A stretch of DNA of 64,000 nt, from positions 1 through 64,000 of the forward strand of contig JAQVTR010000005.1 in NCBI GenBank assembly GCA_028699915.1, given 5' to 3'. This document shows, piece after piece, positions 28,096 to 59,367 of the stretch. Made by a program: the position numbers and the translations under genes. The DNA is from Fidelibacterota bacterium (lineage in GTDB: Bacteria; Fidelibacterota; Fidelibacteria; Fidelibacterales; Fidelibacteraceae). Below the pieces are notes generated by a model, which worked only from the letters and a program-made list of their open reading frames with translations, had not been told where the DNA came from and did not search any database. Position 1 is the first letter of the stretch. Each line of letters starts with the position of its first letter.

Positions 28096-28911
28096 ATGAC
28101 TAAAATTAATTGGTATTACCCAAAAACGCTCAGTGAAGCGAGCAACCTGGTTTCAAAATCCGGCGTCATCCCGATAGGCGGCGGTACGGATCTGGTCAAA
28201 AGGCCACTGAGAGGGATCAGCGGCATTGTGAGTTTACGGGATCTGGATCTCGGTCGAATCGGGCTTGGCAAAGAAAACTGGTTTTTCGGCAGCATGTGCA
28301 GCTACGCGGATGTTCTGAATGCGTTGCGCCCGGAACAGCGGGAACACGTACTTTTCAGATCACTTGAATATGCCGCCAATACGCCCTGCCGCAACCGCAT
28401 CACGCTGGGCGGCAGCACGGCCTTTGTGCCGGGCTGGTCCGATCTGGCCGGTCCGCTGCTGGCGCTGGATGCTTTCGTGCATCTGGCGGCCGACCCGGAA
28501 GAGCGCTATTCTTTTACTGACTATCTGCAGCAGCCGGATCTGCGCAAGGGCAAATTGATCACAGGGATCAGCTTCCGGAACAGCGCGCATCGCGCGGCGC
28601 ATTACCGGGAAGTCCGTACACACAACGATATGCCGCAGTTCACGGTGACCGTCCTTTTACGAATGCGGGATTCCCGGATCGATGAAGCGCGCCTGATCCT
28701 TGTCGGCAGCCGGGAACGCTTTTTGCGTCTGCAGAAAACGGAAGCTGCACTTATCGGAAAAAACGCGGAAGAAATAAAGCATTTAAATGTACAGGAACTT
28801 GAAGATATTCGTTTTCATGAAAAGCCCGGCACAGATGCGGAATATCTCCGCGAAAGGGCAGCAAGGGAGATCCTGCGCAGCGTACTCAAAGCTCTGGGGG
28901 ACAAGGTATGA
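28096..28911 (+). CDS. Molybdenum hydroxylase I, FAD-binding medium subunit
   Basis: A 271-residue CoxM/XdhB-type subunit carrying FAD and passing electrons from the Fe-S subunit to an acceptor. The N-terminal FAD motif is PIGGGTDLVKR; the second motif region is TPCRNRITLGGSTAF, where most relatives have TxGGN. The C-terminal CO-dehydrogenase-flavoprotein domain ends with REILRSVLKALG. First gene of the cluster; its stop overlaps the next start (ATGA). Subunit order is FAD, Fe-S, Mo. Confidence 0.88.
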   Translation: MTKINWYYPKTLSEASNLVSKSGVIPIGGGTDLVKRPLRGISGIVSLRDLDLGRIGLGKENWFFGSMCSYADVLNALRPEQREHVLFRSLEYAANTPCRNRITLGGSTAFVPGWSDLAGPLLALDAFVHLAADPEERYSFTDYLQQPDLRKGKLITGISFRNSAHRAAHYREVRTHNDMPQFTVTVLLRMRDSRIDEARLILVGSRERFLRLQKTEAALIGKNAEEIKHLNVQELEDIRFHEKPGTDAEYLRERAAREILRSVLKALGDKV

Positions 28912-29378
28912 AAACGCTTGTAACAATTAACGGGAAAAGCATTGAGCTCCGTTTCGATCCCGATGAAACCCTGCTGCACACCCTGCGCAATCACGGCTAT
29001 ACCGAAGTGAAAAGCGGCTGTGAGGAAGGCGAGTGCGGCGCTTGTCTGATCTTGCTGAACGGCAAGGCCGTCAATTCCTGCCTGATATTCACGGCAACGT
29101 TAAAAAATGACAATATTCTGACAGCCGCCGGCATCGGAACATTGCATGAACCGCATATCATCCAGCAGGCATTCGTTGATTGCGGAGCCGTGCAGTGCGG
29201 TTTCTGCACGCCGGGCATGGTGATCGCCGGCTATGCGCTTCTGCAGGACAATCCCGATCCTTCCGAGACTGAGATTAGAAAAGCGCTCAGCGGCAACCTC
29301 TGCCGCTGCACGGGCTATGTGAAGATCGTAGAGGCCGTACAGGAGGCGTCTAAACGCCTGAGAGGTGAAGGATCATGA
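28908..29378 (+). CDS. Molybdenum hydroxylase I, [2Fe-2S] small subunit
   Basis: A 156-residue CoxS/XdhC-type subunit with two [2Fe-2S] clusters. The plant-type ferredoxin cysteines are in SGCEEGECGACLILLNG and the following NSC; the C-terminal helical domain has QCGFCTPGM and GNLCRCTGY. All eight expected cysteines are seen. It relays electrons from the molybdenum site to FAD. It overlaps both neighbours by 4 bases. Confidence 0.94.
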   Translation: MKTLVTINGKSIELRFDPDETLLHTLRNHGYTEVKSGCEEGECGACLILLNGKAVNSCLIFTATLKNDNILTAAGIGTLHEPHIIQQAFVDCGAVQCGFCTPGMVIAGYALLQDNPDPSETEIRKALSGNLCRCTGYVKIVEAVQEASKRLRGEGS

Positions 29379-31705
29379 GCAAAACCTATACAAGCATCGG
29401 AAAGGCCGAAAAAAAGATCGACGCCCTGGCGCTTGCGACCGGCAGCCGGCGTTTTGTGGACGATTTTGAACTGAAGGACTGCCTGCACTGTAAGCTGATC
29501 TATTCCCCGCATGCCTTTGCCGATATTATCAAAATTGATGAAAGCCCAGCCCTCGCCATGGATGGTGTCGTGGACGTGCTGTCGTACAAAAATACTCCGC
29601 AGATCCTGCACACCAGTGCGGGTCAGGGATTCCCGGAACCCTCGCCTTACGATCAGTATCTTTTTGACAAGGTGGTCCGTTTTGCCGGAGACCGCGTTGC
29701 CATGGTCGTAGCCGAGAGCCCCGCCATTGCGGAAACCGCGGCAAAAAAAGTGAAGATCGCTTACAAGCTCCGGAAAGCGCTTTTTGATCCGGAGCGCGCC
29801 ATGGATGCGGATGCGCCAAAGCTGCACGGAAAAGAATGTTATACGCCCATCGGCGCCGCCTATGATCCGCAGCGGAATCTGGCGGCGGAGGTGGACCTGG
29901 GTTTCGGCGATCTCAAAGAAGGCGAGGAAGCGGCGGATATTGTTATTGACGAAACCTACAAAGCGCATTACGGCTCGCATTGCGCCATTGAACCGCATTC
30001 CGTTAAAACCTATTTTGATGATGAAGGCCGTCTGGTCATATTGGCGTCCACGCAGGTGCCCTTCCACGTCCGGCGCATCGTTGCGCGGGTCTGTGAATTT
30101 CCCCTGGCGAAGATCCGCGTGATCAAGCCGCGTATCGGCGGCGGTTTCGGCGGCAAGCAGGAAGTCCTGCTGGAGCCGCTGGCGGCGCTGGTGAGTATTC
30201 GGCACAAGCGTCCCGCCAGACTGGTATTGAGCCGCGAGGAGGTTTTCCGGAACAGCCGGACACGGCATCCGGTTCGCGTGCGGCTGCGCAGCGGCGTAAA
30301 AAAAGACGGCACGATCACTTTTCTGGAAATGGACTCCCTGCTCAACTCAGGCGCCTACGGCTCCCACGCACTGACAGTGCTGTCGAACTGCGGCTCCAAG
30401 GTGCTGCCCCTGCTGAACAAGATCGAGAACATGCACTTTCTTGGCCGCTCGGTCTATACCAATCTGCCGGTCGGCGGCGCTTACCGGGGATACGGTGCCA
30501 CACAGGGCTATTTTGCGCTGAATCAGCATCTGGATATTCTCTGCCGGCGCCTGGATATCGATCTGCCGGAATATATCAAGAAACACCACATCCGTGAAGG
30601 GGAGACCTCTAAAATCTTTGAAGCGCTGGGCGAAGGCAAGACCGGCGTTCAGCAGTTTGTCAATTCCTGCAAACTGGACGAATGCATTGATATCTGCACA
30701 CGCGAGATCGGCTGGTACGGTAAGCGAGATAAAAAAATTCGCAGTGGCGATAAGGTGCGCGGCGTGGGACTGGCGGTTGCCATGCAGGGTTCCGGCATTC
30801 CGCTGGTGGATATGGCTGCAGCATCCATGAAAATGAACGAGGACGGTTCCTTCAATCTGGATATCGGCGCCACGGATATCGGCACCGGATCCGATACCGT
30901 GCTGGCGCAGATCGCCGCAGAGGTCCTGAATGTCGATCTGGATGCCATGATCGTCCTGTCTTCCGACACAGACCGGACTCCTTTTGATGTCGGGGCTTAT
31001 GCCTCTTCCACGACCTACATATCCGGCCGCGCGGTGCGCAAGTGCGCCGAAAAGATCCTGGAACAGATCATCGGCGTTGCCGCTGAAATGCTGGAAACAT
31101 CATCCGATAAACTGAAACTCTCTCACGCCGGAGTAAAAGATCCCGCAAGCGGTAAGCGCATCGGCTATCCGGAAATCTGTCAGTATGCGATGTACAGTGC
31201 CAATCAGTTCCAGATCCAGGCGGTGGCTTCGGAGTTCGTCGAGGAATCCCCGCCGCCCTTCATTGCACAGGCAGTGGAAGTGGAGGTGGATACGGTGACC
31301 GGCGCGGTGCAGGTGCTGAAACTGGTCTCGGCGGTGGACTGCGGCCAGGCCATCAATCCGAAACTGGCCGAAGGACAGATCGAAGGCGCGGCCGTCAACG
31401 GAATATCTTACGCCATGACGGAAGAATACATTTTTTCCGGTAACGGCAGAATGATCAACAGCAGCTTTAAGAATTATAAGATCCCCACAGCGGCGGATCT
31501 TCCAGAAATGAAAACCGTTGTAGTCCCCTCGCATGAACCCAGCGGTCCCTTCGGAGCAAAATCCGTCGGCGAGATCGGAATCAACTGCCCTATGCCGGCA
31601 ATAGCGAACGCCATTTACGATGCAGTCGGCGTCCGCCTGTACGAAGCACCGTTTACTCCGGAGAAGGTATACAGGGCGATCCGAAAACAGCAAGAAGTCC
31701 AATGA
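29375..31705 (+). CDS. Molybdenum hydroxylase I, molybdopterin-binding large subunit
   Basis: A 776-residue catalytic subunit of the xanthine dehydrogenase/aldehyde oxidase family (closest in feel to XdhD/XdhA of the E. coli ygf region). The MoCo loop GGGFGGKQE is near residue 255, RGYGATQGYF near 370, and the catalytic Glu is in GAKSVGEIGI near 730. The N-terminal IGKAEKKIDALALATG domain is standard. It would hydroxylate a purine or related N-heterocycle. Whether it uses a labile selenium ligand cannot be seen. It overlaps the amidohydrolase gene by 4 bases. Confidence 0.9.
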   Translation: MSKTYTSIGKAEKKIDALALATGSRRFVDDFELKDCLHCKLIYSPHAFADIIKIDESPALAMDGVVDVLSYKNTPQILHTSAGQGFPEPSPYDQYLFDKVVRFAGDRVAMVVAESPAIAETAAKKVKIAYKLRKALFDPERAMDADAPKLHGKECYTPIGAAYDPQRNLAAEVDLGFGDLKEGEEAADIVIDETYKAHYGSHCAIEPHSVKTYFDDEGRLVILASTQVPFHVRRIVARVCEFPLAKIRVIKPRIGGGFGGKQEVLLEPLAALVSIRHKRPARLVLSREEVFRNSRTRHPVRVRLRSGVKKDGTITFLEMDSLLNSGAYGSHALTVLSNCGSKVLPLLNKIENMHFLGRSVYTNLPVGGAYRGYGATQGYFALNQHLDILCRRLDIDLPEYIKKHHIREGETSKIFEALGEGKTGVQQFVNSCKLDECIDICTREIGWYGKRDKKIRSGDKVRGVGLAVAMQGSGIPLVDMAAASMKMNEDGSFNLDIGATDIGTGSDTVLAQIAAEVLNVDLDAMIVLSSDTDRTPFDVGAYASSTTYISGRAVRKCAEKILEQIIGVAAEMLETSSDKLKLSHAGVKDPASGKRIGYPEICQYAMYSANQFQIQAVASEFVEESPPPFIAQAVEVEVDTVTGAVQVLKLVSAVDCGQAINPKLAEGQIEGAAVNGISYAMTEEYIFSGNGRMINSSFKNYKIPTAADLPEMKTVVVPSHEPSGPFGAKSVGEIGINCPMPAIANAIYDAVGVRLYEAPFTPEKVYRAIRKQQEVQ

Positions 31706-33048
31706 TTATAAAAAATGCCAACATTGCATTGCCGGGGCGCAATGACTTTGTCCCTCTTGATATAGAAATTCAGGAAGGAAAGATCCTGCGTACCGGAGCG
31801 GATCTGTCCGGAGATGAGATACTGGATGCCGCCGGTTTACAGGTCTTTCCCGGAGCTGTCGATTCACATGTGCATTTTAACGAACCGGGCTATACGGAAC
31901 GCGAAGATTTCTATCACGGCAGCGCTGCTGCCGCCTCGGGCGGCGTGACAACGCTTATCGATATGCCCTGCACCTCACTTCCGCCCCTGATCGATAAAAA
32001 AGCGCTGGATTCGAAACTCGATATTGTAAAAAAACATGCCCTGATCGATTTCGGGTTTTTCGGAGGCGTTTCGGCAAAAAGCTTTTTCGGCGACTGGAAA
32101 AACAACATGAAAGATATGGCGGCGGACGTGATGGGATTCAAAACTTATTTTCTGTCCGGCATGGAGAGTTTTCCGCAATTAAGTCCGCTGCAGTTTGAAC
32201 AGGTCCTGCGGGTAGCGCAAAGTCTGGGCCGTCCGGTACTGCTGCATGCCGAAGACCCCGCGCTGGTTGAAAAATTCACAAAGCGCGAACAGGCAAAAGG
32301 CGACAGCTGGCTGCATTATTACCGTTCCAGACCGGAAAAAGCGGAATTTCGTGCCGTAAAAAAAGCGATCAAAGCAGCGCGAAGGAACAGTGCGGATTTG
32401 CACATCGTGCATGTGGGAACGGGAAAGGCGGCTAAAATACTAAGGCGGTACGCGCATGTCAGCGGCGAAACGGCGCCGCACTATCTGGCCTTTGATATTC
32501 GCGATCTGGAAAGGATCGGCGCTGCGCTTAAGACCAACCCGGTCGTTAAAAAACCGGCAAACAAAAATATTTTATGGCGCTGTCTGCAGAACGGCACTCT
32601 GGACTTTGTCGCTTCCGATCACGCCCCGGCTCCTGATGAAATGAAGAATACGGGCTCGGTCTGGACCGATTATGCAGGTATTCCGGGCAGCGGAACAATG
32701 TTTCCCTTTCTATATTCCGAAGCGCTGATCCGGCGGAAAATGCCGTTTACCCGCTTTCTGCAGATCACGGCGGAAAATGCCGCTAAACGTTACGGTTTTT
32801 TCGACAGAAAAGGGTCCATTGAGATCGGCAAAGATGCGGATCTTGTCCTGGTCGATCCGAAGGCCGTGCTGCAGATCAGGGGAGCGGATTTCCTTTCAAA
32901 AGGAAAGATAACACCTTTTGAGGGACAAGTGTTTCAGGGCAAAGTGATAAAAACCATTGTGCGCGGAAAAACCGTGTACGATGCGGACAAGGGTGTCGTT
33001 ACGGATCCCGGATACGGCTGCTTTATTCGTCCGGCGGAAAGGAGCTAA
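31702..33048 (+). CDS. Cyclic amidohydrolase, allantoinase/hydantoinase type
   Basis: A 448-residue metal-dependent amidohydrolase opening cyclic ureides. Metal ligands: DSHVHFNEPG (HxH), the carbamylated Lys in VMGFKTYF, LLHAEDP, LHIVHVGT, and ASDHAPAPDE. The pattern fits allantoinase/dihydroorotase-like enzymes rather than D-hydantoinase. In E. coli the matching place is held by the hydantoinase HyuA (YgeZ). No zinc ligand is missing. Substrate is probably a purine-derived ring, inferred from neighbours. Confidence 0.85.
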   Translation: MIIKNANIALPGRNDFVPLDIEIQEGKILRTGADLSGDEILDAAGLQVFPGAVDSHVHFNEPGYTEREDFYHGSAAAASGGVTTLIDMPCTSLPPLIDKKALDSKLDIVKKHALIDFGFFGGVSAKSFFGDWKNNMKDMAADVMGFKTYFLSGMESFPQLSPLQFEQVLRVAQSLGRPVLLHAEDPALVEKFTKREQAKGDSWLHYYRSRPEKAEFRAVKKAIKAARRNSADLHIVHVGTGKAAKILRRYAHVSGETAPHYLAFDIRDLERIGAALKTNPVVKKPANKNILWRCLQNGTLDFVASDHAPAPDEMKNTGSVWTDYAGIPGSGTMFPFLYSEALIRRKMPFTRFLQITAENAAKRYGFFDRKGSIEIGKDADLVLVDPKAVLQIRGADFLSKGKITPFEGQVFQGKVIKTIVRGKTVYDADKGVVTDPGYGCFIRPAERS

Positions 33049-33049
33049 C

Positions 33050-34333
33050 ATGTCAGATCATTATATTCTCAGCAATGCCGTTCTCAGCGACGGCGTTTCC
33101 TTCGTTCTTCACGATGCCGCCATCGAGATCAAAAACGGCAGCATCCTGAAGATCGGAAAAAATGCGGATATGCAAAAAACGGGCATCAAAAGCATCGATC
33201 TCGGGGGCCGGCTTGTGCTGCCCGGTCTGCTGAACGCGCATCACCATCTGTATTCCGCCCTGGCAACGGGACTGGCGCCTGCGGGTCCGACCGACACCTT
33301 CGGGCGGATCCTGGAGAATCTCTGGTGGCGGCTGGACCGCAGTCTGGATGAAGAGAGCATTTATTATTCCGCCGTCAGCGGGCTGATGCAGTGCATCCGT
33401 TACGGCGTGACCACCGTAATCGATCATCACGCATCCATGCACAGCGTAAAGGGCAGTCTGGATATCATTGAAAGCGCATTCCGGGAGACGGGCCTGAAAG
33501 GTCTGCTGTGCTATGAGGTATCCGACCGCGAAGGCGAAAAGGCCCTGGACGCCCAGATCGATGAAAATGTAAACTTCTGGAACAAACACAGGGAAGACCC
33601 AAAGATCCGCGGACTTTTCGGACTGCACGCAAATTTTACGCTGAGCGAAAAAAGCATGCGGCGCATTGCGGAAGTCCGGCCCCGGGAAATGCCGGTGCAT
33701 ATCCACTGCGGGGAATCGGCGGGCGATCTTGCCTTCTGCCGCGGACAGGGCTATGCCGGACCCGTGGACCGTCTGCATGCTTTCGGCCTTCTGTCCCGCA
33801 GCAGTCTGCTCGCGCACTGCATTCATCTTTCGGACCGCGATTACGATATCCTTTATGAACTGCAGCCGGTGGTGGTCTCCAATCCGGAATCCAATGCCAA
33901 TAACAATGCCGGTATGATGGATCTGACGAAGATCCGCCGCTATGTGCTGGGTACGGACGGCATGACGGGCAATATGCTGGGCACTTTCCGCTCCCATTTC
34001 CTGCTGCGGAACGGAGACCTGCAAAACCCCTCCGGCATGCTTTTTGCCTATCCGGCGGAGATCATGGGCAGCTATTTTCCGGGCTGGGGAAAGCTCGAAG
34101 CCGGCGCTGCTGCGGATATCGCCGTTACCAATTACCGTCCCCTTACTCCGCTGAACATGGATAATCTGTTCTTCCACCTGATCTTCGGCGTGCAGGGCAA
34201 AGAAATGTTTATGACCATCGCGGACGGGAAAATCCTTTTCAGCAACAACAAGCTGCATTCGCCGGACGAAGAAGCAATGAATGCGGCCATCAAAGAAACG
34301 GTAATGAAACTTCATGAACGCTTTAAACAGTGA
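33050..34333 (+). CDS. ssnA: Putative aminohydrolase SsnA
   Basis: A 427-residue amidohydrolase of the SsnA type, named in E. coli for a stationary-phase gene of the selenium-linked hydroxylase region. Zinc ligands are LNAHHHLYSAL, MPVHIHCGES, LAHCIHLSDRD and VLGTDGMTGN. The start at 33050 is supported by GAAAGGAGC and follows the previous stop by one base; the frame is open further upstream. SsnA always travels with YgfK/XdhD-like genes and is required for anaerobic urate use in gut bacteria as I recall it. It is expected to open or deaminate a purine ring intermediate. Confidence 0.9.
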   Translation: MSDHYILSNAVLSDGVSFVLHDAAIEIKNGSILKIGKNADMQKTGIKSIDLGGRLVLPGLLNAHHHLYSALATGLAPAGPTDTFGRILENLWWRLDRSLDEESIYYSAVSGLMQCIRYGVTTVIDHHASMHSVKGSLDIIESAFRETGLKGLLCYEVSDREGEKALDAQIDENVNFWNKHREDPKIRGLFGLHANFTLSEKSMRRIAEVRPREMPVHIHCGESAGDLAFCRGQGYAGPVDRLHAFGLLSRSSLLAHCIHLSDRDYDILYELQPVVVSNPESNANNNAGMMDLTKIRRYVLGTDGMTGNMLGTFRSHFLLRNGDLQNPSGMLFAYPAEIMGSYFPGWGKLEAGAAADIAVTNYRPLTPLNMDNLFFHLIFGVQGKEMFMTIADGKILFSNNKLHSPDEEAMNAAIKETVMKLHERFKQ

Positions 34334-37300
34334 CATTATGTACCCTCTGCCCATCGGACGCCTGACGGCGACGCTGCTGCAGGGACTAAAAAACGGCAGC
34401 ATCTTCGGCATATACCGCAGCACCTTTGCGGATCCTGCGGATTATCCCGAACTGCAGTCCGCCCTGTTCGGCCGGACACTGGATACACCCCTGGGTCCCG
34501 CCGCGGGTCCGCATACGCAGATGGCACAGAACATCATATCTGCCTGGCTCTGCGGCGCACGCTATATCGAGCTGAAGACCGTGCAAACCCTTGATGAGAT
34601 CGAGGTGTCCAAACCCTGTATCGATATGCAGGACGAGGGCTATAACTGCGAGTGGTCACAGGAGCTGACCCTGCAGCAGTCTTACGAAGAATATCTCAAG
34701 GCCTGGATCCTGATCCGTATTCTGCAGAAAGAGCTGGGCTATGCGGATTTCGGCACGATCTTCAATATGAGTGTCGGTTATGATATGAAAGGTATCCTCA
34801 AGCCCAATGTTCAGAAATTCTTCAGCAAAATGGCCGATTGCTCAAAAGAAAAAGAGAACATGCTGGAAGCGGTCCGGCCGCTTTATCCCGGCATTGACGA
34901 TATCGATATTCCCTGCTGTATTTCCGATAATATCACGCTGTCCACCATGCACGGCTGTCCGGCGGACGAGATCGGTCAGATCGGCCGCTACCTTTTGGAA
35001 GAACGGGGACTCCATACTTTTATCAAGCTCAATCCCACGCTGCTGGGAGCGGATGCGATCCGTGAAATACTGCAGGGGCTCGCTTACGACACCGTTGTGC
35101 CGGACACGGCCTTTGAACATGACATCAGCTTTGATGCCGCCTGCGCGATCATTGAAGAACTGCAGGCAGTCGCAAAAAAAGAAGGACGTTTTTTCGGCAT
35201 CAAGCTGACGAACACACTGGAAGCGCGTAATCACAGGGACATTTTCAGTGAAGAAAACATGTACATGAGCGGCAAGGCCCTGCATCCCGTCAGCATCAAC
35301 GTGGCGGCAAAACTGCGCCGGCGCTTTCCGGAACTTCCGCTGTCCTTCTGCGGCGGCCTGCATGCTTACAACGCGGCCGATGCCGCCGCCTGCGGACTCT
35401 TTCCCCTGACCGTCAGTTCGGATCTGCTGCGTCCAGGCGGCTATACGCGCCTGCGCCAGTATCTGGAAAATCTCAAAAAACAGCAAAAAAACGTGGAACC
35501 GCTCAAATATCTGGCCGCGTATGCAGAGCAGGTTCGCCGTGATCCGCAGTACAGGCATAGTGAGCGCAGCATCAAAAGCAGGCGCAGGCTGGACTATTTT
35601 GACTGTATTGCGGCGCCCTGCGTTGAAGCATGTCCCGCACATCAGAATATTCCGGCATATCTTGCTTTTATTAACCGCGGCGACAATGCCAAAGCGCTTG
35701 AAACGATCCTGCAGACCAATCCTTTCCCCTTGTCGACGGGAATGATCTGCAATCACGCCTGCCAGACGGTCTGTACCCGGGTCCATTACGACAGCGCCAT
35801 TCGTATCAGGGATATCAAACGCTATATTGCCGAAAATACCGAACGTTTGCAGCAACATCTGTCCGGGGTCGGGAAAGAACTGCGCATTGCCGTGATCGGT
35901 GCCGGGCCTGCGGGCCTGAGCTGTGCCTGGTATCTGGCGCTTTCGGGCTGTACTGTGGACGTTTACGAAGCGTCCGATCGTCCGGGCGGCATGCTGGATG
36001 CCACGCTGCCCGCATTTCGCCTGCAGGAAGAAGCGCTGAACGGCGATATCGCCGCTATTCTGAAAACGGGTGTCCGTCTTCACAGCGCTTCGCCGGTAAA
36101 TAAAGAAATATTCCGGAATTTACAGAAAAACGCCGATTACATTTTTATTGCCGCCGGCGCACAAAGATCCCTTGAAGCCGGTATTCCCGGAGCGGGGGAT
36201 ATGCTGACGGATGCGCTGGCATTTTTAAAGGATGTGCGAAAAGGCGAAACGCCGGATTTAGGCAGTGATATCCTGGTGCTGGGCGGCGGCAATACCGCCG
36301 TAGACGCCGCAAGAGCCGCAAAATATCTTGCCGCGGCCGATGCGAAAGTCCGTATCGTTTACCGCCGCAGCCGCAGTGAAATGCCCGCTGACGAGAGTGA
36401 GATTGAAGCGGCACTGGAAGAGGGGATCGAGCTTATCGAGCTGGCAGCACCGGCCAGAGTGATCAGCAGCAGGGGAAAGATCAGCGCGCTGGAATGCCAC
36501 AAAATGAAACTCGTTCCCGGCAAAAAGGGCGAGCGTCCAAAACCGGTGGCCATACCCGGTAAAAATTTCAGTATACCGGCCTCCCTTATCATTTCCGCTT
36601 TCGGACAAAAGCCGGAGCTGGCGTTTATTGAGGATAAGGATCTGAAAGGAAAGAAAGAACTCGAGACTGCGATCCCCAATGTTTTTATCGGCGGGGATGC
36701 GCGTTTGGGAGCGTCTTTTCTGATCAATGCGATCGCGGACGGTAAAGACGCAGCGAAAAAGATCCTGGAAGCCGCCGGGGCAGATGCTCTTTTTGAGAAG
36801 GAGCTTCGCAGCGAAAAAAGCAGCCGCGAGGAACATCATCAGAAACTGTCACGTGTATTTCCGGGCGTTAAAACACGTTTTTTGCCGCTTGCAGATCGGG
36901 ATCTGCACAGCACGGTGGAATTGCCGATGCGCGAAGCGGAAGTCCGCGCCGAGTCCGGCCGCTGCCTGAACTGTGACGAGATCTGCGACCTCTGCGTAAG
37001 CGTCTGTCCCAACCGCGCCAATGCCGGCTATCACGTCCGCCCTTTTCGAATGCCGTTAAGCAGCATTACCCTGGAAAACGGTGAGTATTTTACAAGTCCG
37101 GATGATGAAATGGTCATTGAACAGCAATATCAGACCCTGAATATCGCCGATCTCTGCAATGAATGCGGCAACTGCACGACCTTTTGTCCCAGCGGCGGAC
37201 GGCCCTTTGCCGATAAGCCGCGCATCGCTCTTTGCAGGGACAGCTACCGTTCTCTGGAAAAAGGGTTTTATATCAGCGGCGAGCGCGTCTTCTATAAGGA

Positions 37301-37502: not shown

Positions 37503-37529
37503 AACCGCAAAAATAAGGAATTGAAAAGT

Positions 37530-38747: not shown

Positions 38748-38758
38748 AGGAAAGAAAC

Positions 38759-39781: not shown

Positions 39782-39784
39782 ATC

Positions 39785-40957: not shown

Positions 40958-41534
40958 CGCTATCGTTCTGGCAGCGGGCCGCTCGGAAAGGGCCGGACTC
41001 TTTAAGGCGGCCGCCGATCTTGGCGGCAAGCCGCTGCTTTGGCGGAGTATCGAAAGTTTTGCCGGTATCTGCGAACGCATCATCGTTGTCGGCGGATACC
41101 GCTTCGGCGACATTCAGGAGCTTCTTGAAAATATGCCCGGACTTGTGATCCGGGAAAATAAAAATTATGAAAAGGGCATGTTCTCTTCTGTGCAAACCGG
41201 ACTGCATGCACTGCAATCCGATGCGTTTTTTCTGCTTCCCGGCGATCAGCCGCTGATCGCAGCCCGCACTTACCGGCGCATGGCACAGCAGGACGCCGAC
41301 ATTGTTGTTCCACGCTATCAGGGGAAAAAAGGACATCCGGTATTTTTCCGGGCATCCTGCATTCCGGAGATCCTGGCCATGCCGGAGACCGCTGTTCTGC
41401 GCGACTATATTCATGCCCACGGCAAAGTCTGCATTCTGGATGTCGATGACCCCGCCATTCTGATGGATGCGGATACGCCCGGGGATCTGGAGCGGATCAG
41501 AGATTATTATTTCAAACAAAGGAAGGGGCAGTGA
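40947..41534 (+). CDS. mocA: Molybdenum cofactor nucleotidyltransferase MocA-like
   Basis: A 195-residue nucleotidyltransferase of the MocA (YgfJ) family, which adds CMP to molybdopterin for xanthine-dehydrogenase-type enzymes. The signature LAAGRSERAG is followed by LPGDQPLIAA and GHPVFFR and DVDDPAILMDADTPGDL. The start at 40947 is preceded by TTGAGG and overlaps the PLP gene by 11 bases. Its stop overlaps the next gene (GTGA). Located between the hydroxylase sets it is expected to serve. Confidence 0.92.
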   Translation: MKIDAIVLAAGRSERAGLFKAAADLGGKPLLWRSIESFAGICERIIVVGGYRFGDIQELLENMPGLVIRENKNYEKGMFSSVQTGLHALQSDAFFLLPGDQPLIAARTYRRMAQQDADIVVPRYQGKKGHPVFFRASCIPEILAMPETAVLRDYIHAHGKVCILDVDDPAILMDADTPGDLERIRDYYFKQRKGQ

Positions 41535-43627: not shown

Positions 43628-44087
43628 ATTTACACTCAACGGCGAAAAAAAACATCTTGATGTGCATGCCGCAACACGGCTGCTGGATGTGTTGCGGGGA
43701 CATTTTGGGCTCATTGGAGTCAAGGAGGGCTGTGGTGAGGGCGAATGCGGCGCTTGCATGGTGCTGATCAATGGCCGGGCCATGAACAGCTGTATGATAC
43801 CGATGGGAAATTTGGAAGGGAAAAACGTCATAACGCCCGAAGCCTTCTGCCAAAGCGAACGCGGGAGGATCATTGAGGATGCTTTTATGGAAGCGGGCGC
43901 CGTACAGTGCGGATTTTGCACGCCGGGTTTTATTATGGCAACGGCTTCCCTGCTGAACGCCAATCCGGATCCGGACGAGGCGCAAATCCGGGAAGCGCTT
44001 TCGGGGAATCTCTGCCGCTGCACGGGCTATACCGCCATTGTGCGGGCGGTACGGATCGCCGCGGGAAAAGGAGCGGGAGCATGCTAG
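43617..44087 (+). CDS. Molybdenum hydroxylase II, [2Fe-2S] small subunit
   Basis: A 156-residue small subunit with KEGCGEGECGACMVLINGRAMNSC and QCGFCTPGF plus GNLCRCTGY, giving all eight cluster cysteines. It overlaps the large subunit gene by 11 bases and the FAD subunit gene by 7. The order Mo, Fe-S, FAD is the reverse of set I. It is similar in length to small subunit I but has different linker sequence. Confidence 0.94.
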   Translation: MKIEFTLNGEKKHLDVHAATRLLDVLRGHFGLIGVKEGCGEGECGACMVLINGRAMNSCMIPMGNLEGKNVITPEAFCQSERGRIIEDAFMEAGAVQCGFCTPGFIMATASLLNANPDPDEAQIREALSGNLCRCTGYTAIVRAVRIAAGKGAGAC

Positions 44088-44938
44088 ACGGATACCTGCC
44101 GGCAAAACTGTCCGAAGCGCTGGATATGATGGCGGAATGTGACTGCATTCCCTTCGCGGGCGGCACCGACCTGATGGTGCAACACGCGCGGGGCAGCGGT
44201 GTGCGTCCGTGTTTTGATAAAACTTTGCTGTTCGTTTCTGCGCTGAAAGAACTGAAGACCTTTGATCTGATGGGAAAAACCCTGCGGATCGGAGCGGCGG
44301 TAACGCTCAGCGAACTTTTGGAAAATGCTGCAACACCACAGATATTTAAAGAGATACTGCGGCAGATGGCCGCTGCACCCACACGCCACATGGCTACACT
44401 GGCGGGGAATATTTGTAACGCCTCCCCTGCAGGGGATACTCTGCCCTATCTTTATGCTATGGATGCGGAAGTCATCCTGCAGTCCCGAAACGAAACACGC
44501 GTTTTGCCCGTTGCGGATTTTATCACCGCACCGAAACGGACACAGCGCAAGAACGATGAACTGTTAACGGGAATTCGTATTCCCGCAGCCGAATTCAATG
44601 TGGAAAGTTACCGCAAACTGGGTCAGCGAAAAGGAATGAGCCTGACGAAAGCCTCTTTTCTGGGACTGGCCTCGACGGCAAACGGCAGGATCGAGGACAT
44701 TCGTATCGCATTGGGTTCCGTAGCGCCGCACATAGTGCGATCGCGAAAAATCGAGAGCAAATTAACGGGGAAAAATATCAAGGATATTCCCGGAATACTG
44801 CAGGAATTACAAAAGGATTACAGCGCGCTGATAAGGCCTATCGATGATGCGCGTTCAACCGCTGCCTACCGGAAACAGGTAAGCCTGCGCCTGATCCGTG
44901 ATTTCCTGATTAATTGCATGCTCAAAAAAATACCGTAA
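44081..44938 (+). CDS. Molybdenum hydroxylase II, FAD-binding medium subunit
   Basis: A 285-residue FAD subunit. FAD motif FAGGTDLMVQ near residue 25, and the second motif ATLAGNICNASPAGDTLPYL near 106, both canonical. C-terminal flavoprotein domain follows (YRKLGQRKGMSLTKAS). The start at 44081 is preceded by AAAAGGAGCGGGAGC; the frame is open further upstream inside the Fe-S gene but without such support. Completes the second hydroxylase. Confidence 0.92.
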   Translation: MLDGYLPAKLSEALDMMAECDCIPFAGGTDLMVQHARGSGVRPCFDKTLLFVSALKELKTFDLMGKTLRIGAAVTLSELLENAATPQIFKEILRQMAAAPTRHMATLAGNICNASPAGDTLPYLYAMDAEVILQSRNETRVLPVADFITAPKRTQRKNDELLTGIRIPAAEFNVESYRKLGQRKGMSLTKASFLGLASTANGRIEDIRIALGSVAPHIVRSRKIESKLTGKNIKDIPGILQELQKDYSALIRPIDDARSTAAYRKQVSLRLIRDFLINCMLKKIP

Positions 44939-44953
44939 TAAGGAGAGATACGT

Positions 44954-45574
44954 ATGAATGAAAACAAAAGATTCTTGTCAAGCGTTTTGCTCTTTGGAGC
45001 GCTATGGGGTTTAGCGGAAGCCACACTGGGCTATCTGCTTCATTTTTTACCCTGCGGTTTTGCAGGACTGGTTATGTTCCCCATCGGATTTTATATGATG
45101 TACAACGCTTACCGCCTTAGCGGCAGACACAGTGCAATGCTGGCGGTTGCGCTGATTGCGGCTCTGATCAAGACCATTGATCTTGCCCTACCTTTAACGA
45201 ATATCATGAGCGTGCTGAATCCCGCGAGTTCTATCCTCATAGAGGGGCTGGTTGTCTTTGGGGCGGCAAGGTTCTTTGAAGGAAGGCGTGCGCTGCCGGC
45301 CGTGTTGCTGGTAAGCGCAGGCTGGATCCTGCTTTTTGTGCTGACGCAAAGCCTTCTGCTTCGTCCTGCAAGCGGCCTGTATCTTTACCCCTTGAAAACG
45401 ATGCTGTTCTACATTCTGCTTAACGTTATTGTCAATAGCGCGGCGATTCTGCTTTATCTGAAAAATAAAACCCGCCTGTCCCTGCGACTGCAGCAGGAAG
45501 CGACCGCTTTGGTGGCACCGTTGATGTTGTTGTTTGCAATCGCAATGGAGATCGGCAATAATCTGCTGTCCTGA
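44954..45574 (+). CDS. Small six-helix membrane protein of unknown function
   Basis: A 206-residue, very hydrophobic protein with about six predicted membrane segments. The first helix (SSVLLFGALWGLAEATLGYLLHF) carries a conserved-looking Glu. Size and helix number are like the substrate-binding S-components of ECF transporters, but no known S-component signature is seen. GGAGAG precedes the ATG. It sits between the second hydroxylase and the DUF364-type gene, so a link to purine, molybdate or selenium handling is possible. No other transporter is found in the cluster. Confidence 0.55.
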   Translation: MNENKRFLSSVLLFGALWGLAEATLGYLLHFLPCGFAGLVMFPIGFYMMYNAYRLSGRHSAMLAVALIAALIKTIDLALPLTNIMSVLNPASSILIEGLVVFGAARFFEGRRALPAVLLVSAGWILLFVLTQSLLLRPASGLYLYPLKTMLFYILLNVIVNSAAILLYLKNKTRLSLRLQQEATALVAPLMLLFAIAMEIGNNLLS

Positions 45575-45575
45575 C

Positions 45576-46301
45576 ATGCAAATACTGGTGCAGCTGATCT
45601 CAGACATTCCGGAACTGGCTGTCGATGAAGTGATCATCGGTGTGCATTCTGTTCTGGTAAAAAGCGGAGCGCTCGCGGGTATTGCCAGTACCATCAAATA
45701 CTGCGGTCCCCATACGCAGCTCCGCAATGCGGGCGAACTGGAAAAACACACGCTCCGGAAACTGGCGAGCTATGCCCTTTCGGATAATTTGCTGGAGGCT
45801 TCTGTAGGCATGGCTGCGATCAACTGTGCCCTTTCCGCAAATGCGGAAAAATATCGCGAGATTAATGCAAAAGAGGTGCTTCTTGAAAAAGGTCGCGCCA
45901 AAACGGTCGGTATCATCGGACATTTCCCCTTTTTGGAGTCGCAGCGCATGGAATATGAACATTGTTTTATTTTTGAAAAACAACCGCAGAAAGGGGATCT
46001 GAAGGAAAGCGATATTCCCGCTTACCTGCCCCGGGTGGATGTGGTTGCTATCAGCGGGACAACCCTGACCAATCACAGCTTTTACGATGTGATGCATAAT
46101 GTATCCCCGTCTGCTTTTTGCCTCTTATTGGGACCTTCCACACCGCTGAGCCCAAAGCTTTTCGATGTGGGGATCGATGTGCTTTCCGGCACGGGAATAA
46201 GGGACTATGATCGTGCTAAAAGTTGTGTATTGCAGGCCGTGCCGACCCGTTATCTGAAAGGCGTGGCGATGCTGAGCATGTTTAAAGAGGATTATCAATG
46301 A
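45576..46301 (+). CDS. DUF364/DUF4213-type putative metal-chelation protein
   Basis: A 241-residue protein whose layout fits the DUF4213 (N-terminal) plus DUF364 (C-terminal, putative heavy-metal chelation) pair. Typical segments are AVDEVIIGVHSVLVKS, GHFPFL, and VVAISGTTLTNHSFYDVM and LLGPSTPLSP. Family members often sit next to metal-cofactor genes; biochemical function is unproven. The start at 45576 follows the previous stop by one base, and the end overlaps xdhC (ATGA). A role in delivering molybdenum or another metal to the hydroxylases is inferred from position only. Confidence 0.7.
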   Translation: MQILVQLISDIPELAVDEVIIGVHSVLVKSGALAGIASTIKYCGPHTQLRNAGELEKHTLRKLASYALSDNLLEASVGMAAINCALSANAEKYREINAKEVLLEKGRAKTVGIIGHFPFLESQRMEYEHCFIFEKQPQKGDLKESDIPAYLPRVDVVAISGTTLTNHSFYDVMHNVSPSAFCLLLGPSTPLSPKLFDVGIDVLSGTGIRDYDRAKSCVLQAVPTRYLKGVAMLSMFKEDYQ

Positions 46302-47101
46302 AAAGTATCTACAGCGAATTGCTGGAACTGGCCGAAGGTTCCGCTGCCGGTGTGCTTGTTACGGTTGTCGATAAACAGGGATCGGGACCTGCAGCCGCCG
46401 GCGCGAAAATGATCGTCTATCCGGACGGCCGCAGTTCCGGAACGGTCGGCGGAGGAAATCTTGAATCGCTTGCCATCCGCAAAGCCCTGACGCTGATCGA
46501 AACAAAAGAAAATGCGCTGGAAACCTTTTCGATGGACGAAGAAAAAAGGGGAACTCAAACCGGCATGATCTGCGGTGGAACAGCAACACTGTTCTTTGAA
46601 TATTTCGCCCCGCAAAAACAAGTCTTTATTTTCGGAGCGGGACATATCGGCCGCGCACTGGCTTACCATTTAAAGCCCCTGCCCTGGCGTGTTACGATCA
46701 TCGACGATCGCCCCGAAGCATTGTCGCAGATCGCCGATGCCGACGAAAAGATCCTGACGCATTTTGACGATGCGCTGAAGGGTCGCATTTTCCCGAAAGG
46801 CGCTTTTTATGTTATTGCCACCTACGGACACCGGCACGACGGAACCGTTCTGAATGCTATCTACAAAGCGAATATCAAACCGGCCTACGTGGGTATGGTG
46901 GCTTCCGCAAAAAAGAAAGCTCTTCTGACGGAAGATCTGAAAAAAGCGGAACCGAAGGCAGATCTGTCGGTCTTTTATATACCGGTCGGTCTGAATATCG
47001 GAGGAACCCTGCCGCAGGAGATCGCCATTTCCATTATCGCAGAAATGCAAGCGGTTTCCAACGGAAAAACCAGCGCACACTTACGGCAGCTTCATGATTA
47101 A
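46298..47101 (+). CDS. xdhC: XdhC/CoxI-family molybdenum hydroxylase maturation factor
   Basis: A 267-residue XdhC-type chaperone that inserts the sulfurated molybdenum cofactor into xanthine-dehydrogenase-like enzymes. The N-terminal XdhC_CoxI motif is DKQGSGPAAAGAKM and SSGTVGGGNLE; MICGGTATLFFE follows; the C-terminal Rossmann domain has VFIFGAGHIGRALA and TYGHRHDGTVL. The YqeB family of selenium-dependent systems has a different N-terminus, so XdhC is the better name. It overlaps both neighbours by a few bases. Confidence 0.9.
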   Translation: MKSIYSELLELAEGSAAGVLVTVVDKQGSGPAAAGAKMIVYPDGRSSGTVGGGNLESLAIRKALTLIETKENALETFSMDEEKRGTQTGMICGGTATLFFEYFAPQKQVFIFGAGHIGRALAYHLKPLPWRVTIIDDRPEALSQIADADEKILTHFDDALKGRIFPKGAFYVIATYGHRHDGTVLNAIYKANIKPAYVGMVASAKKKALLTEDLKKAEPKADLSVFYIPVGLNIGGTLPQEIAISIIAEMQAVSNGKTSAHLRQLHD

Positions 47102-47591
47102 TATTGTCAGCGGAATTCAGAATGCAGGAAAGACACGCTTTATGCGGGATCACGCCAAGGGCAGCGGCGGGGACGGGATCTTAAGTGTAAAATATTTCGA
47201 GGATGGACGGCATGCGGGCTACGATCTTCTGCATTTGCGCAGAGGACGCAGCCTGCCCTTTATTCGCCGCCGGGATAACTTGCCCCCCGACTGGGACGGC
47301 GTGGCCGAAACCGGACCCTGGGTCTTTTCAGCGGCCGCTTTCCGCTTTGCAGAAAAAATATTTAAAAACAATCGTTCAGAACCCCTTTATCTCGATGAGA
47401 TCGGTCCGCTGGAGATCCGTGAAAAATCAGGGTTCTATCGGCTTGCAGCGGGACTTATCTCCGGCGGCGACAGGGAATTGTTCCTGAGCGTGCGCGAAAG
47501 CCTTCTAGGATCCTTTATACAAACGTTTTCACTGACACGGAGTCAGTTGGTCATTATTCGCTTAACACCAAAACGAGGCAGTTATGATTGA
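47094..47591 (+). CDS. THEP1-like P-loop NTPase
   Basis: A 165-residue P-loop protein. Walker A is GIQNAGKTRF near residue 7 and the Walker B region is LYLDEIGPLEIREKSGF, very like the NTPase_1/THEP1 nucleoside-triphosphatase family (DEIGxxE). An alternative is a MobB- or YqeC-like accessory protein for molybdenum or selenium cofactors. It overlaps xdhC by 8 bases and the next PLP gene by 8 bases, so it is part of the operon. Function in the pathway is unknown. Confidence 0.65.
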   Translation: MINIVSGIQNAGKTRFMRDHAKGSGGDGILSVKYFEDGRHAGYDLLHLRRGRSLPFIRRRDNLPPDWDGVAETGPWVFSAAAFRFAEKIFKNNRSEPLYLDEIGPLEIREKSGFYRLAAGLISGGDRELFLSVRESLLGSFIQTFSLTRSQLVIIRLTPKRGSYD

Positions 47592-49047
47592 TCTGAGCAT
47601 TCACAAAGAACAATTGAAGAAAACCGTTCAGCGCTGTAAGGAACGCAATATTATATTACCGACCTTTGAACAGATGAAGCATCCCGAAGGTATTCCCGAA
47701 AACATCAAAAAGGAACTGAGCGGCATCGGGCTCTGGGACATCCACCCGCGGAATCTGTTCCGTATTACCTGGAAAAATGAGCCCGTGCAGGAAGGCGGAA
47801 AATTCAGCGGCGTGAACCTTATGGAAATTCCTCCCGAAATCAGCGGAGTGAAAGCCCGGATTTTTGCACTGGTGGGCAAATGGTTCCCCACGGGCGCACA
47901 CAAGGTCGGAGCCACTTACGGCTGTATTGTACCGCGGCTGATCACGGGACAGTTTGATCCCACAAAGCAAAAAGCCGTATGGCCGTCAACCGGTAACTAC
48001 TGCCGGGGCGGGGCCTATAACGCCGCCCTGCTGGCCTGCGAATCCATTGCCATTCTGCCCGAAGAAATGTCGCAGGAACGCTTTGAATGGCTGTCAAGAA
48101 TTGCCGGCGAAGTAATCCCAACGCCAGGCTGCGAAAGCAATGTTAAAGAGATCTTTGACAAGTGCCGGGAATTGCGCAATACCCGCGGCGATGATATCAT
48201 GATCTTTAATCAGTTTGATGAGTTCGGCAATCATCTCTGGCATTATGATGTCACCGGAAACGCCATATTGGAGGTCATGCGGAAAAAAATGCAGAAAAAA
48301 GATCATTTTGCCGGTGTTGTACTGAGTTCCGGATCGGCCGGAACCCTGGGCTGCGGAGATTTTCTGAAAGAACATTTCCCGCAGCTGAAAGTAACCGCGG
48401 CCGAAGCACTGCAGTGCCCCACCCTGCTGGAAAATGGTTTTGGCGGTCACCGTATTGAGGGCATCGGCGACAAGCATGTGCCCTGGATCCACAACCTGCG
48501 CAACACGGATATGGTTGTTGCCGTAGACGATGAAGTGACAATCCGTGTAATGCGTTTGTTCAATGAACCGGAGGGGCGTGAATATCTCAACGAACAGGGT
48601 GCTGATGCGGACCGGGTAAACGATCTTGATCTGCTCGGTATTTCCTCGATCGGCAATCTGATCGGTGCAATCAAATTTGCAAAATATTATGAGTTGACGG
48701 AAGATGATATTGTCATGACCATCTTTACGGATTCCATGGAGCTTTACGATTCCCGAATCCGCCAACAGCGTAAAATACACGGCGAATATACGCGTGAACA
48801 GGCCATTCGCGATTATGAGATGCTGCTGAATGTAAATACCGACAATATGCAGGAGCTTGGTTACCGCGACAGAAAACGCATTCATAACCTGAAATATTAT
48901 ACCTGGATCGAACAGCAGGCAAAAGACCTGGATGAGCTGAACGCGCAATGGTATGATCATGAAAATTACTGGGGAAATATCCATGCCATGGTGCCGAAGA
49001 TCGATGCATTGATCCGAGAATTCAATGAGCGGGTAAAAAACTTATAA
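47584..49047 (+). CDS. Fold-type-II PLP enzyme, TrpB/cysteine-synthase-like
   Basis: A 487-residue PLP-dependent enzyme. The PLP Lys is in FPTGAHKVGATYG, the same motif as TrpB (TGAHK), with the phosphate loop in SSGSAGTLGCG. It is longer than TrpB and has no TrpA neighbour. Similar proteins are annotated only as pyridoxal-phosphate-dependent beta-subunit-like in clostridial genomes. Being in this operon it may act on a diamino acid from purine breakdown (elimination of ammonia). GAGGCAGTT precedes the ATG. Function inferred. Confidence 0.75.
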   Translation: MIDLSIHKEQLKKTVQRCKERNIILPTFEQMKHPEGIPENIKKELSGIGLWDIHPRNLFRITWKNEPVQEGGKFSGVNLMEIPPEISGVKARIFALVGKWFPTGAHKVGATYGCIVPRLITGQFDPTKQKAVWPSTGNYCRGGAYNAALLACESIAILPEEMSQERFEWLSRIAGEVIPTPGCESNVKEIFDKCRELRNTRGDDIMIFNQFDEFGNHLWHYDVTGNAILEVMRKKMQKKDHFAGVVLSSGSAGTLGCGDFLKEHFPQLKVTAAEALQCPTLLENGFGGHRIEGIGDKHVPWIHNLRNTDMVVAVDDEVTIRVMRLFNEPEGREYLNEQGADADRVNDLDLLGISSIGNLIGAIKFAKYYELTEDDIVMTIFTDSMELYDSRIRQQRKIHGEYTREQAIRDYEMLLNVNTDNMQELGYRDRKRIHNLKYYTWIEQQAKDLDELNAQWYDHENYWGNIHAMVPKIDALIREFNERVKNL

Positions 49048-49060
49048 ATACGGTGATGCA

Positions 49061-50479
49061 ATGAAACAATCCATTTTGATCAAAGACCCCCTTCTGTGCT
49101 GCAGGATCAGCGATCATGTCGGCGATAAGGAGCCGCTGGATGCTTTTTCCGGCGGGCACGTCTTTCTGGAAGCGGGAAAAATCCTTTCTGCGGGGCCCGA
49201 ACCTTTCCGGGGTTCCGCAGATATAAGCATCGATGCAAGCCGAATGCTGGTGCTGCCGGGTTTTGTAAATACCCACCACCATTTTTTTCAGACACTGACA
49301 CGCAATATTTTGGCAACACAGCGATCGGAGCTCTTTGACTGGCTCAAGATCAACTACGAGATCTGGCGCGGCATTAGCGGAGAGGCGTTTTATATCAGCG
49401 CAAAAACCGCAATGGCGGAGCTGATGAAGACCGGCTGCAGCACTAGCTCCGATCACCTTTATCTTTTTCCGAAAAATGCGGAAGGGACGCTGATCGACCG
49501 TGAGATTACGGCGGCGCAGGAGCTGGGTATGCGCTTTCATCCCACCCGCGGATCTATGAGTCTTAGCGTTAAGGATGGCGGTCTTCCGCCCGAAGACGTG
49601 GTGCAGGAAGAAGCGCGGATCTTTGCCGATATCGAGCGACTGGTGGAGCGCTACCACGATCCCCGCGAAGCCGCCATGCTCAGGATCGCCCTGGCACCCT
49701 GTTCGCCGTTCTCCGTAACGCCTTCGTCAATGCGCAAAACCGTGGAGGTGGCGGAAAAATACGGCTTGCAGATCCATACGCATCTGGCGGAAACCAAAGA
49801 CGAAGAATTGTTCTGTCTGGAAAAGTTCGGAAAACGCCCCTTTAAATTTATGCGGGATCTGGGTTGGATCCGAAGCAACGCCTGGTTTGCGCACAGCATT
49901 TATCTTAATGACGCGGAAATTCGTGCAATGGGGGAAGCCGGCGCAGGCGTAGTCCACTGCCCGTCCTCCAATATGCGCCTGGGTTCGGGTATTGCAAAAG
50001 TTAAGGAAATGCTGGACGCCGGCGTAAATGTAGGAATCGGCGTGGACGGTTCCGCATCCAATGACGCCTCCAATATGCTGCTGGAGATCCGCAATGCAAT
50101 GCTGATCTCCCGCCTTCGCGCTCCGCAATACTGGCTCAATACGGAAGAGGTTCTCTGGATGGCGACCCGGGGCGGCGCAAAAGCGCTGGGACGTAACGAT
50201 ATCGGTCAAATACTTCCGGGCAAATGCGCAGACATCTGCATGATCTCCATGGACAGGCTGGAATATGCGGGCGCGGCGCACGACCCGGCGGCGGCAGTCG
50301 TGTTCAATGCCGCACTGGAACCCGTAGACGCGTTAATCGTGAACGGAGAGATCGTGGTCAAAAAAGGAAAGATCGCCGGACTGGATGAACCCGGACTGAT
50401 CCGCCGCCAGCAGGAAAGCTCCTCTGCCCTTATTGCCGCGGCGGAAAAACGCTTGCCCCGGACATTGCGGCGGGTATAG
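49061..50479 (+). CDS. 8-oxoguanine deaminase-like amidohydrolase
   Basis: A 472-residue amidohydrolase matching the 8-oxoguanine deaminase/hydroxyatrazine-hydrolase group. Ligands: NTHHHFFQT, IHTHLAETK, FAHSIYL and GVDGSASND; the signature CSTSSDHLYLFP is typical of 8-oxoguanine deaminase. The product from 8-oxoguanine is urate, which links it to the rest of the cluster. It starts 13 bases after the PLP gene. Last gene of the cluster before degP; no strong terminator is visible in the 140-base gap that follows. Confidence 0.85.
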   Translation: MKQSILIKDPLLCCRISDHVGDKEPLDAFSGGHVFLEAGKILSAGPEPFRGSADISIDASRMLVLPGFVNTHHHFFQTLTRNILATQRSELFDWLKINYEIWRGISGEAFYISAKTAMAELMKTGCSTSSDHLYLFPKNAEGTLIDREITAAQELGMRFHPTRGSMSLSVKDGGLPPEDVVQEEARIFADIERLVERYHDPREAAMLRIALAPCSPFSVTPSSMRKTVEVAEKYGLQIHTHLAETKDEELFCLEKFGKRPFKFMRDLGWIRSNAWFAHSIYLNDAEIRAMGEAGAGVVHCPSSNMRLGSGIAKVKEMLDAGVNVGIGVDGSASNDASNMLLEIRNAMLISRLRAPQYWLNTEEVLWMATRGGAKALGRNDIGQILPGKCADICMISMDRLEYAGAAHDPAAAVVFNAALEPVDALIVNGEIVVKKGKIAGLDEPGLIRRQQESSSALIAAAEKRLPRTLRRV

Positions 50480-59300: not shown

Positions 59301-59367
59301 CGGACGCAACGATCCCTGTCCCTGCGGCAGCGGGAAAAAGTACAAGAATTGCCACGGGCAGGTCTGA
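56362..59367 (+). CDS. secA: Preprotein translocase ATPase SecA
   Basis: A 1001-residue SecA motor that drives export through SecYEG. Walker A is TGEGKTLVA near residue 150; [16 protein letters not shown] is the DEAD-box region; the NBD2 motif includes NMAGRGTDI and [12 protein letters not shown]. The C-terminal zinc tail [14 protein letters not shown] is complete. The final Gln-Val-stop runs straight into IS481-like sequence, so the last residue and the stop codon may come from the inserted element. Length is slightly above the usual 840-900 owing to an insertion near residues 290-430. Confidence 0.95.

Follow-up and report, generated by a model that had tools for sequence, protein, structure and literature searches.

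The anaerobic breakdown of urate was described by Li et al. in 2025, who showed the pathway with Escherichia coli and Clostridioides difficile enzymes (PMC12507026). XdhD-YgfM converts urate to yanthine, YgfK and SsnA reduce and open yanthine to give ureidomethyl-hydantoin, HyuA forms diureidopropionate from it, YgeW and YgeY yield diaminopropionate (DAP), and YgeX turns DAP into pyruvate (PMC12507026); the order in which the ureido groups are removed is disputed (PMC12990295). A literature search on this pathway in Marinimicrobia found nothing relevant. Here we analyze an operon at positions 28096-50479 of a 64,000-nucleotide stretch of contig JAQVTR010000005.1 from a Fidelibacterota bacterium (the window, meaning the whole stretch). 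It probably encodes all or nearly all of an anaerobic route of purine catabolism, which would end with PLP1, a threonine-synthase-fold pyridoxal phosphate (PLP) enzyme, instead of YgeX.

The operon comprises 19 intact consecutive open reading frames (ORFs), all on the + strand, where a sequence-only reading of the window had counted 17 genes. That reading had described them as co-directional and mostly overlapping, and indeed 11 of the 18 junctions overlap, with gaps of 1-27 bases at the others. Family searches place 16 of the 19 genes and recover every family it had named: two molybdenum (Mo) hydroxylase sets (Mo, FeS and FAD subunits, here numbered 1 and 2), SsnA, YgfK, YgeY, a YgeW-type carbamoyltransferase, MocA, XdhC, a cyclic amidohydrolase, two PALP enzymes (PLP1 and PLP2) and 8-oxoguanine deaminase. 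Genes beyond its list include the three left unplaced: one for a membrane protein at 44954 without a family, one at 45576 with only the domains of unknown function DUF4213/DUF364, and one at 47094 for a P-loop NTPase with a sub-threshold match. The gene order is retained in other genera and families (loci L023, L025, L026, L041 and L149): it is unchanged from Mo1 to DUF364 in L023, from FAD1 to 8-oxoguanine deaminase in L025 and L122 taken together, and from SsnA to 8-oxoguanine deaminase in L149, and the conservation reaches across genera and families into Bacteroidota. This indicates a conserved operon rather than a chance run of genes. The source genome (G000; 1.95 Mb, 115 contigs, 93% complete) belongs to Candidatus Neomarinimicrobiota, and its YgfK is 79% identical to that of a same-genus genome (G013). 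Neomarinimicrobiota is a member phylum of the FCB (Fibrobacteres-Chlorobi-Bacteroidetes) group, in agreement with the FCB origin that had been thought likely.

We infer all enzyme activities in this organism by analogy with the E. coli and Clostridioides enzymes, for which the reactions are known. The reductive route would begin with Mo1 (29375..31705), an XdhD-type molybdopterin large subunit, acting with the separate [2Fe-2S] subunit FeS1 (28908..29378) and with FAD1 (28096..28911), an FAD-binding subunit in the YgfM role. This set is predicted to catalyze the C6 reduction of urate, with 2,8-dioxopurine (yanthine) as the product; electrons would pass from NAD(P)H through FAD and two 2Fe-2S clusters to Mo. 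Compared directly against the proteins of the E. coli locus, Mo1 matches EcXdhD (39% identity, 501 bits) better than EcXdhA (34%, 398 bits). Li et al. singled out E606, which is present in XdhD and not in XdhA, and linked it to yanthine formation (PMC12507026). Mo1 carries the equivalent glutamate in a GEG loop that is missing from EcXdhA. The GEG insert was found in every Mo1-family sequence collected, including those from Bacteroidales (L167) and Bipolaricaulota (L119), and no XdhA-type or Mo2-type sequence has it, bar one ambiguous alignment (L112). The top E. coli match of FAD1 (PF00941/PF03450) is YgfM (27%), and in FeS1 (PF00111/PF01799) all 8 Cys ligands of the 2Fe-2S clusters are intact. 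In E. coli K-12 (L130, 23317-26187), the N-terminal "2Fe-2S" domain of XdhD (residues 1-165) contains no Cys and so cannot hold the usual clusters; set beside the intact FeS1, this bears on the electron route in E. coli XdhD-YgfM.

Urate itself would be produced by Mo2 (41531..43627), FeS2 (43617..44087) and FAD2 (44081..44938, start ATG 44081) through the oxidation of hypoxanthine and xanthine, and 8-oxoguanine deaminase (49061..50479) would supply extra urate from 8-oxoguanine. The top models for Mo2 are TIGR02965 and pucD. It scores below the equivalog cut-offs of all xanthine dehydrogenase models, has no GEG insert, and retains the Glu and Arg that we take to be the substrate residues of xanthine dehydrogenases. 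FeS2, a [2Fe-2S] subunit, and FAD2 were assigned by family matches, whilst the deaminase passes PRK08203 (571 bits, cut-off 532) and has 3hpa and 7ww2 as its top PDB matches. The top scores of both large subunits are with XdhA/XdhD and xanthine dehydrogenase models and those with carbon monoxide (CO) dehydrogenase are far lower; an identity as CO or nicotinate dehydrogenases was rejected on these scores.

The next steps are represented by YgfK (34314..37502), an NAD(P)H-dependent Fe-S flavoenzyme predicted to dearomatize yanthine, which passes TIGR03315 (854.8 bits, cut-off 835.3) and is 36% identical to EcYgfK. SsnA (33050..34333), for which dihydro-yanthine ring opening is predicted, has the SsnA family as its top match at 396 bits, under the PRK07203 cut-off of 444 (EcSsnA 31%). 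The HyuA-type cyclic amidohydrolase (31702..33048), of the allantoinase/dihydroorotase family, has AllB as its top model (355.8 bits, cut-off 357.85), is 28% identical to EcHyuA and is predicted to hydrolyze ureidomethyl-hydantoin. Together, SsnA and this hydrolase would open the rings to 2,3-diureidopropionate. The ureido groups would then be stripped to leave 2,3-diaminopropionate by the M20 hydrolase YgeY (37530..38747) and by a YgeW-type knotted carbamoyltransferase (38759..39781; WAYATSHAKPLSVP loop), the latter by phosphorolysis to carbamoyl phosphate. YgeY is distinguished from ordinary peptidases by passing its equivalog cut-off (489 bits, cut-off 321; EcYgeY 48%). For the carbamoyltransferase, the separation from ornithine carbamoyltransferase holds in part: its nearest solved relative and top PDB match is E. 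coli YgeW (3q98; 37% identity), with which it has the knot loop KPLSVP in common, but neither cut-off is passed (213 bits with the YgeW model, cut-off 453). No carbamate kinase was found in G000. The kinase is full-length in 5 of 9 genus mates, with fragments in a sixth, and the cluster itself includes a YqeA-type kinase in three relatives (L140, L147 and L150), so that its absence from G000 is likely an assembly gap. These three loci and L039, all from other Neomarinimicrobiota, each hold two different YgeW-like carbamoyltransferases in the cluster, and this pairing may hint at phosphorolysis of both ureido groups.

Since YgeY and YgeW are kept in many clusters, DAP should still form, and there is no YgeX in the operon. 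In its stead, PLP1 (39785..40957) would eliminate ammonia from DAP to give pyruvate, and PLP2 (47584..49047) would act in the same pathway in most lineages. PLP2 is a 487-residue enzyme in which N- and C-terminal extensions of ~90 and ~100 residues surround a cysteine-synthase/CBS-like fold. The case for PLP1 is built on family, co-occurrence, operon slot and residue data, and that for PLP2 on family, PDB matches and co-occurrence. Among 245 Neomarinimicrobiota genomes, 70 of them with YgfK, PLP1 was present in 64 of the 70 and in 8 of the 175 others (Fisher p 1.6e-42), PLP2 in 63 and 9 (p 2.7e-40), and YgeX in 2 and 8 (p 0.73), where these p-values and those below ignore shared ancestry. Five of the eight genomes with PLP1 and no YgfK belong to one family (f25; L135, L136 and L146), in which the N-terminal half of YgfK is a separate protein in the cluster, without the FAD/pyridine-nucleotide module. 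The f25 cluster reads SsnA-YgeY-YgeW-PLP1 and, in the three genomes inspected, a CysK-like protein replaces PLP2 at its position. In a sample of 247 genomes of the order Bacteroidales, PLP2 was found in 61 of the 68 with YgfK and in 2 of the 179 others (p 3.3e-47), and YgeX in 5 and 4 (p 0.12). Fifty named YgfK genomes from many phyla, which were picked by similarity to the window YgfK and therefore describe this YgfK subtype only, contain PLP2 in 47 cases and YgeX in 5. Thus the presence of YgfK is closely followed by that of PLP1 and PLP2 but not by that of YgeX, and PLP2 accompanies the pathway almost constantly. The published survey scored "YgeX" by the PALP domain PF00291 (PMC12507026); by this criterion PLP1 and PLP2 would be counted as YgeX too.

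Gene order also connects PLP1 with the terminal step. The usual order in Bacteroidota is YgfK-PLP2-PLP1-FeS-Mo-SsnA-HyuA, and PLP1 immediately follows PLP2 in 22 loci. Three genomes read instead YgfK-PLP2-YgeX (G268; L076/L153), PLP2-YgeX-FeS-Mo (G534; L151) and YgeX-FeS-Mo-SsnA-HyuA (G273; L085/L164). YgeX, lying after PLP2, before the 2Fe-2S gene or both, thus occupies the usual slot of PLP1 at these loci. At the sequence level, PLP1 is well apart from the YgeX clade, with 27 bits against TIGR01747 (cut-off 274) and ~26% local identity to YgeX over 125 residues. Its top PDB matches are threonine synthases (6cgq, 6nmx and 1v7c). PLP1 forms a clade separate from these enzymes, and a clear gap divides its orthologs (at least 231 bits) from housekeeping threonine synthases (at most 156.5 bits). 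In comparison with Thermus thermophilus threonine synthase (TtThrS), the PLP lysine and the STGN loop are kept. The position of R160 is Thr, Leu or Met in 46 of 46 orthologs, and that of N188 is an invariant Asp (46 of 46). We take R160 and N188 to be binders of the phosphate of O-phosphohomoserine (OPH), and their loss argues against PLP1 being a threonine synthase. N188 varies in the four threonine synthases of the phylum used as controls, which makes the R160 Arg the stronger marker. The acidic residue, for its part, would be compatible with a positively charged leaving group, for instance the DAP beta-amino group. Predicted structures agreed with the assigned folds and gave no discrimination between substrates. 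PLP1 is our leading candidate to stand in for YgeX as a non-orthologous enzyme, and we put the chance that it is a DAP lyase at about even.

Several observations weigh against the operon as a complete route ended by PLP1. The MocA- and XdhC-type proteins, like SsnA and the carbamoyltransferase, fall below their family cut-offs, no carbamate kinase was found in the 93%-complete source genome, and family searches recognized no transporter family among the operon genes. A true YgeX is encoded outside the operon in G000 and G013, so that PLP1 is not strictly needed there; the clear copy in G000 (495.5 bits) is on contig C68 (7.4 kb), amid unrelated genes. A Desulfobulbaceae genome (G289) has YgeX plus a PLP1-PLP2 pair, which, with the two genomes above, leaves room for redundancy or for a different role of the PLP enzymes. 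PLP2 is present even where YgeX is (G268, G534, G245, G289 and G291), which implies that the two PLP enzymes do not replace YgeX as a unit, and the Fisher p-values take no account of shared ancestry. The proposal of the sequence-only reading, that this is the same pathway encoded by a different set of genes, was right in substance and is partly supported, whereas its suggestion of a full route in a single operon is unsupported as it stands, with YgeX outside the operon, no carbamate kinase found and no transporter family recognized. That reading had also named a refuting pattern, large subunits grouping with CO or nicotinate hydroxylases and YgeY and YgeW with ordinary peptidases and ornithine carbamoyltransferase, and this pattern did not appear. 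Because parts are exchanged in the published cluster of C. difficile too, the pathway claim stands and strict identity of the gene set does not. Completeness within the operon would require PLP1, or PLP2, to take over the reaction of YgeX, as we propose.

It is rather unlikely, though worth weighing, that PLP2 rather than PLP1 consumes DAP, or that both do so, each on its own stereoisomer or jointly as a complex of two enzymes. The association of PLP2 with YgfK is as close as that of PLP1, it adjoins YgeY or YgfK in several phyla, and some Desulfobacterota loci (L097 and L099) have PLP2 with no PLP1 in range; even f25, which lacks PLP2, has the CysK-like protein beside YgeY, so that two PLP enzymes are nearly always present. 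Yet PLP2 persists in the five YgeX-bearing genomes named above, and in G268 and G534 it is the place of PLP1 that YgeX fills. As the sole replacement for YgeX, PLP2 was rejected on this persistence. A service role of PLP1 and PLP2 for the Mo enzymes, such as supplying the sulfur (or selenium) of their sulfido ligand whilst YgeX or another lyase ends the pathway, appears improbable. The cysteine-synthase-like character of PLP2 and its position near the XdhC and NTPase genes would fit such a role, as would G289, where XdhC/yqeB/yqeC-like genes come after the PLP1-PLP2 pair and a full E. coli-type cluster with YgeX stands on that contig. However, DAP would then be left without a known lyase in the 68 of 70 and 63 of 68 YgfK genomes from which YgeX is missing, and YgeX takes the slot of PLP1 at the loci above. 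In addition, Mo-cofactor sulfuration uses fold-type-I NifS-like enzymes, which counts against this role for the fold-type-II enzymes PLP1 and PLP2.

The substrate of the cluster could also be another heterocycle, such as nicotinate, a pyrimidine or a non-purine hydantoin, in view of the breadth of the HyuA/allantoinase and SsnA families and the sub-threshold SsnA score. We consider this very improbable, since the XdhD-type Mo1 with the E606 loop, YgfK, YgeY, the YgeW-type enzyme, the xanthine dehydrogenase-type Mo2 and 8-oxoguanine deaminase together correspond to the demonstrated urate pathway at each step. That the amidohydrolase is an allantoinase in an oxidative route of the allantoin type is scarcely credible. 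The AllB score, just under its cut-off, speaks for it, but YgfK and XdhD are reductive enzymes and none of the 19 genes encodes a urate oxidase, 5-hydroxyisourate hydrolase, 2-oxo-4-hydroxy-4-carboxy-5-ureidoimidazoline decarboxylase or allantoate enzyme. We rejected it because the other genes of that route are lacking in the operon.

The remaining operon genes are predicted to serve Mo-enzyme maturation. They encode a MocA-type molybdenum cofactor cytidylyltransferase (40947..41534; TIGR03310 and NF045665 below cut-off, PF12804, 29% to E. coli MocA), a membrane protein with ~6-7 hydrophobic segments by hydropathy (44954..45574), a DUF4213/DUF364 protein annotated as "putative heavy-metal chelation" (45576..46301; PF04016, PF13938), the XdhC maturation factor (46298..47101; NF045664 and TIGR02964 below cut-off, PF13478, PF02625) and a small THEP1/NTPase_1-like P-loop NTPase (47094..47591; PF03266 at 16 bits, sub-threshold to a cut-off of 23.9). 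The membrane protein has no Pfam or NCBIfam match and is conserved in the family and in an Aminicenantes locus (L091). The stretch 44954-47591, from the membrane protein to the NTPase, is a conserved unit, and the membrane protein, XdhC and NTPase also occur within the urate cluster of L091. It is possibly a module for molybdenum delivery or insertion.

The operon is flanked upstream by a divergent ComM/Mg-chelatase-type gene (26301-27836) and downstream, 141 bases away, by a co-directional DegP-type gene (50621). Scans for promoters and terminators yielded few signals beyond the chance level and none of use at either end of the operon, and an Rfam scan of the window found no riboswitch or other Rfam family. 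Elsewhere in the window are a response-regulator receiver domain fused with a PglZ domain (20713-22284, - strand), an integrase-core (rve) transposase-type ORF immediately after secA (59349-60161, +) and, at 63360-64000 and continuing to the contig end (L126), a partial deaminase-superfamily amidohydrolase with 29% identity to the 8-oxoguanine deaminase of the operon. Two Bacteroidales genomes contain portions of the operon in identical order: the 5' half, FAD1-FeS1-Mo1-HyuA-SsnA-YgfK-YgeY, in G420 (L167), and most of the 3' half, Mo2-FeS2-FAD2-DUF364-XdhC-PLP2-8-oxoguanine deaminase, in G332 (L165). At 34-68% identity to the window operon, these halves suggest transfer between phyla.

Taken together, the data suggest a known pathway with a new part, a swap of the terminal enzyme seen repeatedly in many phyla of bacteria. 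A large share of bacterial diversity may use a different enzyme to finish the urate pathway, with a near-constant extra PLP enzyme. Tentatively, most lineages that have this subtype of YgfK, among them Neomarinimicrobiota, Bacteroidota, Desulfobacterota, Acidobacteriota, Riflebacteria and Bipolaricaulota, might not end the pathway with YgeX, and PLP1 and PLP2 might form an undescribed terminal module, one as a new DAP-type lyase and the other in a further step, likewise undescribed, with DAP, albizziin or their product as substrate. Two PLP enzyme families thereby gain a concrete candidate function, urate degraders outside the gut gain better genome markers, and purine fermentation by uncultured sediment, groundwater and marine phyla is suggested.

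The operon resembles the E. coli cluster (ygeW-ygeX-ygeY-hyuA-yqeA ... mocA-ygfK-ssnA-ygfM-xdhD; PMC12507026) in its XdhD-type reductase with the E606 loop and FAD subunit, YgfK, YgeY, MocA/XdhC-type maturation and adjoining xanthine dehydrogenase, and probably also in SsnA, the HyuA-type hydrolase and the YgeW-type enzyme, which score below their family cut-offs. It differs in having neither YgeX nor carbamate kinase, with PLP1 and PLP2 instead, in its separate Mo, FeS and FAD subunits with intact 2Fe-2S ligands, in the inclusion of xanthine dehydrogenase and 8-oxoguanine deaminase within the operon, and in a divergent carbamoyltransferase. PLP1 itself is like threonine synthase in fold and overall sequence and unlike it in the lost OPH-phosphate Arg and the fixed Asp at N188; with YgeX it shares the PALP superfamily and, in three Bacteroidota genomes, the operon slot. 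The C. difficile variant (UacX and UacY; PMC12507026) shares the overall chemistry and the exchangeability of parts, but the window operon keeps YgfK and the carbamoyltransferase, and the part exchanged would here be the terminal lyase.

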